Origin: an uncultured Actinomycetes bacterium | GTDB lineage: Bacteria; Actinomycetota; Acidimicrobiia; Acidimicrobiales; Microtrichaceae | NCBI GenBank assembly: GCA_903873135.1 | Contig: CAIQNH010000045.1 | Coordinates: forward strand, 1 to 48,141 | Direction of reading: 5' to 3' | Length of the DNA stretch: 48,141 nucleotides | Shown: positions 31,679-33,310 of the stretch, in pieces | How the letters are laid out: each line of letters begins with the position of its first letter | Numbering within the stretch: position 1 is the stretch's first letter | The notes under the pieces: model-generated | Told to the model about the DNA's origin: nothing | The model's database searches: none | What the model saw: the letters and a program-made list of their open reading frames with translations, nothing else | Position numbers and translations under genes: made by a program

Positions 31679-33310
31679 ATGACCGGCCCGCTCCCCACCT
31701 ACGTCAGCGAGTCGTTCGACGCCGACGAGCAGACGATCCTGCGGCGGTACTTCACCAACCTCGACGGGCCGGTGTTCGCGCTGGTGAACCTGCCGGAGGT
31801 GGTCAAGGGTGCGCTGTTCGCCCGCTACTCCCGGTCGGCCAAGTCGCTCCGCCGACTCTTCCTCGACGAGTTCGTCGGCGAGCTCGACACGACCGGCGAC
31901 GAGACGATCGACGCCACCATCGGGTTGGAGCGGGCCGAGGCGCTCTACGACCGGGTGTTCTTCGAGTACGGCGACGACAGCGTCGCACAGCTCGGAGGTG
32001 TGCACCTCGCGTGCGAGCAGGCCTCGAACCTGTTGACGAAGGTGCTCGAGTGGGGACGCCTCATGTCCTACCTGGAGCAGAGCACCCGCTACATCCCCTA
32101 CGACGAGCGACTGGGAGGGCGGTACCGCTACTTCCGCGATCCCGAGCTGCTGTCGTCGAACCTCGGCGCCCGCTACGTGGGCGACATGGACCAGATCTTC
32201 GACATCTACTCGGAGCTGGCCCGAGAGATCCAGGACCACTTCCGCGAGCGGTTCCCCAAGGCCGAGGGCGACTCCGACTTCGTCCACCGGCAGGCCATCC
32301 GGGCCAAGGCCTTCGACGCCACCCGGGGGATCCTGCCCGCAGCGGCGCTCTCCAACGTCGGCATCTACGGATCCGGTCAGGCCTACGAGGCGCTCCTGCT
32401 GCGGATGCGCTCGCTGCCGCTCCCGGAGGCCCGGACCTACGCGGACCTCATGCTCGCCGAGCTGCGCAAGGTGATCCCGAGCTTCCTCAAGCGGGTCGAC
32501 CTGCCCGACCGGGGCGTGGCCTGGAGCGAGTACCTCTCGGACAACCGGGCCGCCATGGAGGCTGCGGCCTACGACGTCCTGAGCGGTGACACCGCCGCCG
32601 GCACCTCCGAGGCGTCGGTCGAGCTCGTGGACTTCGACCCGGACGGCGAGGTCAAGATGGTCGCGGCCATGCTCTACCCGTACACGAGCCTGCCCGAGTC
32701 GCAGATCCTCAACCGGGTGGGTCGCATGACCGTCGAGGAGCGACTGGCGGTCATCCGGGCCTACGTCGGCGACCGGAGCAACCGCCGGCACAAGCCCGGT
32801 CGGGCGCTCGAACGGACCGACTACCGCTTCGACGTGGTGTCCGACTACGGCGCCTTCCGGGACCTCCAGCGTCACCGCATGGCGACGGTCGAGTGGCAGG
32901 AGCTGTCGCCCCGACACGGCTACACCAGACCTCGATCGGTCGACGAGGCCGGTCTCGGGGACCGCTTCGAGGAGGCGATGCACCTGTCGCACGACCTGTG
33001 GGAGTCGCTCTCCGAGCAGTTCCCCGAGCGGGCGTCCTACGCCGTGGCCCTGGCCTACCGGGTTCGGTACGTGATGCAGTTCAACGCCCGCGAGGCGATG
33101 CACCTCATCGAGCTGCGGACGTCCGTGCAGGGCCACCCGAGCTACCGGGCGGTCGGGCAGGAGATGCACCGGCTGATCGCCGAGCGGGCCGGTCACCGAG
33201 CGGTGGCGGAGATGATGACCTTCGTCGACCACTCGGGAGGCGCCGACCTCGAGCGGCTGGGAGCGGAGCGCCGCGCCGAGTCCAGGCGTTCCGCCGTCGG
33301 GGAGTCCTGA
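31679..33310 (+). CDS. Double ThyX-like (FAD-dependent thymidylate synthase fold) protein
   Basis: A 543-residue protein, about twice the length of ThyX (220-250). Both halves look like ThyX. The C-terminal half carries RHRMATVEWQELSPR (Arg398-His399-Arg400, Ser410) and NAREAMHLIELRT. The N-terminal half carries WGRLMSYLEQSTRY (Trp125-Gly126-Arg127, Ser135), which fits the spacing of the RHRx7S motif exactly but has Trp-Gly for Arg-His, and then LPAAALSNVGIYGSGQAYEALLLRM, an echo of the later ThyX helix. In the C half the spacing after RHR is two residues longer. Similar long proteins are annotated as FAD-dependent thymidylate synthases in actinobacteria; whether they make dTMP is unclear to me. 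Confidence 0.75.
   Translation: MTGPLPTYVSESFDADEQTILRRYFTNLDGPVFALVNLPEVVKGALFARYSRSAKSLRRLFLDEFVGELDTTGDETIDATIGLERAEALYDRVFFEYGDDSVAQLGGVHLACEQASNLLTKVLEWGRLMSYLEQSTRYIPYDERLGGRYRYFRDPELLSSNLGARYVGDMDQIFDIYSELAREIQDHFRERFPKAEGDSDFVHRQAIRAKAFDATRGILPAAALSNVGIYGSGQAYEALLLRMRSLPLPEARTYADLMLAELRKVIPSFLKRVDLPDRGVAWSEYLSDNRAAMEAAAYDVLSGDTAAGTSEASVELVDFDPDGEVKMVAAMLYPYTSLPESQILNRVGRMTVEERLAVIRAYVGDRSNRRHKPGRALERTDYRFDVVSDYGAFRDLQRHRMATVEWQELSPRHGYTRPRSVDEAGLGDRFEEAMHLSHDLWESLSEQFPERASYAVALAYRVRYVMQFNAREAMHLIELRTSVQGHPSYRAVGQEMHRLIAERAGHRAVAEMMTFVDHSGGADLERLGAERRAESRRSAVGES

Follow-up and report, generated by a model that had tools for sequence, protein, structure and literature searches.

The flavin-dependent thymidylate synthase ThyX (FDTS) is a studied antibacterial target, the mechanism of which is still debated. 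In the solved structures three subunits build each active site, and in the Mycobacterium tuberculosis enzyme subunit A gives the RHR motif (R95-R97) and R199, subunit B gives S71 and R190, and subunit C gives R87, S105, R107 and the lid residue Y108 (PMC6514825). By alignment to the T. maritima protein, the numbering of which is used below unless stated otherwise, these roles correspond to R78-R80 and R174 (role A), T55 and R165 (role B) and S88, R90 and Y91 (role C); M. tuberculosis R87 has no counterpart there. S88, Y91 and R174 have been described as catalytic in ThyX (PMC8316439, PMC11940539). As the enzyme is a homotetramer, any mutation affects four sites and every subunit role together. 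Domain-duplicated versions of ThyX from Chloroflexi were noted as uncharacterised in 2009 by Valas and Bourne (PMC3224940). Here we describe a tandem, or domain-duplicated, ThyX gene from an uncultured actinobacterium of the order Acidimicrobiales, encoded on a stretch of 48,141 nucleotides (contig CAIQNH010000045.1), which is referred to below as the window.

The 543-amino-acid product consists of two consecutive ThyX (Thy1) domains, and family search marks it as the sole recognisable thymidylate synthase of the cell. The residues of the ThyX active site are divided between its halves, and the reading that we consider most likely, at a probability of about 0.8, is that it is an active flavin-dependent thymidylate synthase in which two tandem chains pair into a dimer, two of its sites being live and two dead.

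Two Thy1 domains and their predicted fold

The features of the gene, with coordinates in the window, are the following:

31679..33310, + strand: tandem ThyX gene; intact open reading frame with an ATG start, 543 amino acids, two Thy1 matches
31922..32482, + strand: N-terminal ThyX domain; Thy1 51.9 bits, profile match to canonical ThyX at E 3e-13
32051..32092, + strand: N-half motif WGRLMSYLEQSTRY, residues 125-138; S135, R137 and Y138 correspond to S88, R90 and Y91, and W125-G126 replace R78-H79
32324..32326, + strand: R216 (RxxLP) of the N half; corresponds to T. maritima R147 and M. tuberculosis R172, 100% conserved in the N half
32621..33187, + strand: C-terminal ThyX domain; Thy1 65.1 bits, profile match at E 1e-16
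32870..32878, + strand: C-half RHR, R398-H399-R400; corresponds to R78, H79 and R80, 100% in 73 tandem proteins
32879..32932, + strand: C-half stretch after RHR, without the SxRY segment; a gap in the profile alignment, S410 39% and R412 20% conserved
33089..33118, + strand: C-half R471-R480 (REAMHLIELR); corresponds to R165 and R174, each Arg 100% conserved in this half

The whole protein matches Pfam Thy1 (PF02511) with an E-value of 4.5e-34 and 118.3 bits, each half exceeds the gathering score of 24.8 bits by itself, and the family is likewise detected in 71 of 71 aligned tandem members. Profile-profile comparisons place the N half on canonical ThyX over 164 columns and the C half over 181 columns, at the E-values given above. 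Thus, the alignment of both halves with the ThyX signature region that a preliminary description had proposed is borne out by separate matches. When the two halves were compared directly by profile-profile alignment, no significant match was obtained, and they are barely alike; a search of the PDB with the single tandem sequence gave no match, and a profile search of it reached ThyX weakly. On the NCBIfam thyX equivalog TIGR02170 the protein scores 48.4 bits, under the 87.9-bit cut-off for membership; distant tandem members score 70.8-80.8 bits or have no match, and a canonical relative scores 202.5.

An AlphaFold2 model of the whole protein (predicted local distance difference test score, pLDDT, 88.5; predicted template modelling score, pTM, 0.87) displays the same order of elements twice, and the best 50 PDB matches listed for it are all ThyX, as expected of the ThyX fold. 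The N half modelled alone (pLDDT 79) also retrieved only ThyX-family structures among its best 50 matches listed, with a best E-value of 1.3e-8, and so the fold is not confined to the C half.

Division of the active-site residues between the halves

An alignment of 73 tandem proteins, drawn from the order, the class and the phylum, was read at the ThyX functional positions. In the C half R78, H79, R80, R165, R174 and E58 are each conserved in 100% and N163 in 95%, and the same holds at 100% for S88, R90, Y91, R147 and R80 in the N half. At the N-half R78 position there is Trp in 78% and Arg in 21% of the proteins, the H79 position is Gly in 95%, the R165 position is invariantly Gln (Q234) and an equivalent of R174 is absent. 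The C half lacks S88, R90 and Y91 throughout and has Tyr at the R147 position in 97%. The complementary loss proposed earlier, with its need for both halves, is thus well supported: in the window protein every role-A residue that was tested lies in the C half, as does R165 of role B, and the role-C residues are in the N half, so that R78, H79 and R174 would be available to one site together with S88, R90 and Y91 only across both halves. The later ThyX helix does recur in each half as a matter of fold, as had been stated, but with different residues, R147 in the N half and R165/R174 in the C half.

The N-half motif WGRLMSYLEQSTRY aligns without gaps with the RHRx7S..RY motif of canonical ThyX, confirming the exact spacing, with Trp-Gly in place of Arg-His, and identifying its WGR segment as the motif equivalent. 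The C half literally reads RHR-x9-S, i.e. with the two extra residues before the Ser that had been pointed out. However, this position is poorly kept (Ser 39%, Thr 38%), only 20% of the proteins have the Arg two residues further on, and the profile alignment puts a gap there; a shifted Ser was hence rejected, and the alignment indicates that the SxRY segment of the C half is lost. A stretched motif alone would mean little, because RHRx8S is present in some canonical relatives.

An alignment-free motif check covered 83 tandem proteins, comprising the 73 aligned and 10 distant ones. All 83 have ExS[T/Q]RY in the N half, followed in the C half by RHR (RHNR in Bacillota) and a later LR, and RHR is absent from the N-half motif of every one. 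The contiguous motif, with x7 or x8, occurs in 53 of 53 canonical ThyX proteins and in neither half of any of the 83; five regular-expression matches to it were false, being located in an upstream NRRHRPGR...SYRF stretch. An identical core split in every member is far more than expected by chance.

Since published structures put R78/H79/R174 and S88/R90/Y91 on different subunits, the two half-sets would fit one composite site. With the roles split in this manner, one N half and two C halves would make up a nearly complete site, and the opposite combination would not. From this conservation and the published structures we infer the composite site, the pairing, the live sites and the activity, as follows. 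Two tandem chains would pair to form the equivalent of the ThyX tetramer. In each live site one C half would bind flavin adenine dinucleotide (FAD) and the uracil side of deoxyuridine monophosphate (dUMP) via R398-H399-R400 and R480, a second C half would contribute R471, and the Ser-Arg-Tyr loop, with S135, R137 and Y138, would come from an N half. The reciprocal sites would be dead, leaving two working sites per chain pair rather than four. The predicted reaction is the normal one, in which the methylene of methylenetetrahydrofolate is passed via FAD to dUMP, yielding deoxythymidine monophosphate (dTMP) and tetrahydrofolate. Of the pseudo-dimer envisaged in the preliminary description, the concerted action of the halves would stand, but the assembly is probably better described as a pseudo-tetramer, in which two tandem chains pair and two sites are live. 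Subunit roles would then be separated onto the two halves of one chain, making each role mutable alone.

Thymidylate routes and the weighing of alternatives

In the genome from which the window derives (98.3% complete, 257 contigs), family searches found no thyA, no second Thy1 protein and hence no normal thyX, no thymidine kinase and no DHFR_1 (dihydrofolate reductase, DHFR); salvage through thymidine kinase was rejected on this negative search. dUTPase is present. In a sample of 61 genomes of the order (this one and 60 relatives), 54 have at least two Thy1 matches, which almost always share a frame, and thyA was found in 0 of these 54. Within this sample thyA is seen only in G010 (full) and G027 (a fragment), neither being an assembly with both Thy1 halves; DHFR_1 occurs in 1 of the 61, adjoining the thyA of G010, and thymidine kinase in 9 of the 41 genomes searched. 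For a bacterial order as a whole, the tandem protein seems to be the only thymidylate synthase. Likewise, in a sample of 199 genomes of the phylum, 58 of the 59 with at least two Thy1 matches lack thyA, the exception (G189) having a partial thyA at a contig end. Many ThyX users lack DHFR (PMC1971073), and genomes without thyA and usually without DHFR are what is expected of ThyX. That the protein is the only recognisable source of dTMP in its genome is our argument for its being active.

Several departures from this pattern were observed. In G010 thyA, DHFR and thymidine kinase lie on one contig (L144, C125), and tandem ThyX is represented by an N half alone, at the end of another contig (L110, C230); this may be a pathway swap, or the contig may simply be cut. 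G203 (L127) and G231 (L128) have a single canonical ThyX in families that otherwise have the tandem form, which looks like replacement, and G099 has two different tandem ThyX genes (L086, L087). In more than 20 genomes of the phylum sample (families f50, f52, f56 and others) Thy1 is not matched and the thyA family is matched only weakly (E ~1e-8 to 1e-12); the frames concerned, most of them 220-250 amino acids long, possibly encode a divergent ThyA.

Certain observations weigh against an active enzyme of the proposed kind. The superposition of the N half on ThyX is loose (template modelling score 0.55 to the target, root-mean-square deviation 14 Å). H53, conserved in 100% of the canonical proteins, has been replaced in each half (D99, P373). 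The GHxSxxEH (H53/E58/H59) element as such is not found in the window protein, the C half retaining only E58 and the N half only the S71 position; the folate/flavin edge of the predicted site is therefore changed. The S71/T55 position, at which the N half has Ser but the C half has Arg, also falls off the clean split. The assembly is in 257 contigs; however, the single-contig relatives G009, G034 and G038 agree with it. As to H53, the loss of which is the chief departure, titles among the PDB matches list crystals of the T. maritima H53A and H53D variants in complex with FAD and ligands, and because of these it is dispensable for binding; without it, the rate or the donor might be different.

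That neither half retains H53 would also accord with a change in the reaction itself, as the preliminary description had considered, with another pyrimidine nucleotide being methylated or another one-carbon donor being used. Modified bases are common in phages, and tandem ThyX members do occur there; moreover, the ThyX-like PolB is named as a methylase of uridine monophosphate (UMP) and dUMP in PMC5003785. We nevertheless regard such a change as very unlikely, given that, in its own genome and almost throughout the order, no source of dTMP other than the tandem protein could be recognised, and that DHFR is missing just as in other ThyX users (PMC1971073). It is highly unlikely that the working site belongs to the C half only, with the N half as a structural partner having its motif conserved for folding or regulation: the C half does outscore the N half on Thy1 and keeps RHR, R165 and R174, but S88, R90, Y91 and R147, each at 100% in the N half, are missing from it in all or nearly all members, and S88 and Y91 are published as critical for ThyX activity. 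More improbable still is that the protein is no longer a thymidylate synthase and that dTMP comes from salvage or an unrecognised enzyme. The score below the TIGR02170 cut-off and the want of a full motif in either half would accord with this, but the genome has no detected thymidine kinase, as is the case for most of those searched, and the active-site residues are conserved without exception over the sampled lineages. Hence, an active synthase built from two tandem chains remains the reading that we favour.

Distribution, history and relation to known systems

Beyond Actinomycetota the distribution was drawn from plasmid, phage and viral records. Tandem relatives are found on plasmid records of Euzebya, Miltoncostaea, Parabacteroides (48% identity), Bacillus and Paenibacillus (~24%) and in phages of Vibrio, Tunturiibacter and Microcystis, with the same core residue split. 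In a tree of the halves the N halves form one group (100/99) and the C halves another (98/92), with the Bacillota plasmid members splitting off from the rest in both; the branches are long and the bootstrap is unsettled. This suggests one old fusion or duplication behind the tandem proteins. Two Bacillota plasmid members have the full GHxSxxEH element and R165 in the N half, whereas those from Actinomycetota and Parabacteroides have R165 and E58 in the C half. Both placements of role B fit two chains in a tetramer-like assembly, and we tentatively raise the possibility that the family divided its multi-subunit site in two alternative ways, with the halves placed differently.

On the Bacillus and Paenibacillus plasmids (L136, L137; 200-230 kb) the tandem gene lies near those for a helicase, a toprim/CHC2 primase and an AAA ATPase, a replication-gene neighbourhood suggesting that these plasmids are phage-like. 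The 48% identical gene of Parabacteroides distasonis (NZ_OY725790; L133) has a dihydrofolate reductase gene ~3 kb downstream, and this record, though labelled a plasmid, bears chromosome-like genes. The 413-residue 'thymidylate synthetase' of Bacillus phage SP-15 (A0A127AWA5) shows weak fold similarity over 426 columns and may also be a double ThyX.

Among the described systems, PolB (4p5b) is of the same fold family but, unlike the tandem ThyX, has a single domain and belongs to an antibiotic pathway. The large ThyX of Microcystis phage Ma-LMM01 (PHROG 36506) and those of jumbo phages are whole-length homologues with the same N/C core split, although very diverged (~20-27% identity); in Ma-LMM01 and two Vibrio phages R165 is absent from both halves. 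The domain-duplicated ThyX of Chloroflexi (PMC3224940), likened here by description, is probably the same kind of protein; Valas and Bourne gave no residue analysis or mechanism for it, and the open-access literature, which was the part covered, holds no later treatment of such proteins and no mention of complementary loss. Thus, the architecture is already known, and the split of the active site appears to be new. Canonical ThyX (PF02511; TIGR02170), typified by T. maritima TM0449 and the M. tuberculosis enzyme, has the fold common to each tandem half and, if the halves are pooled, the same catalytic residues; the same substrates and a DHFR-free metabolism are to be expected. In contrast to it, the tandem protein has fused domains, no contiguous RHRx7S motif, half of its sites predicted to be dead and no H53. 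Because it fell short both of the equivalog score and of the contiguous motif, the window protein is best described as a member of a domain-duplicated branch of the Thy1 superfamily and not as a standard ThyX.
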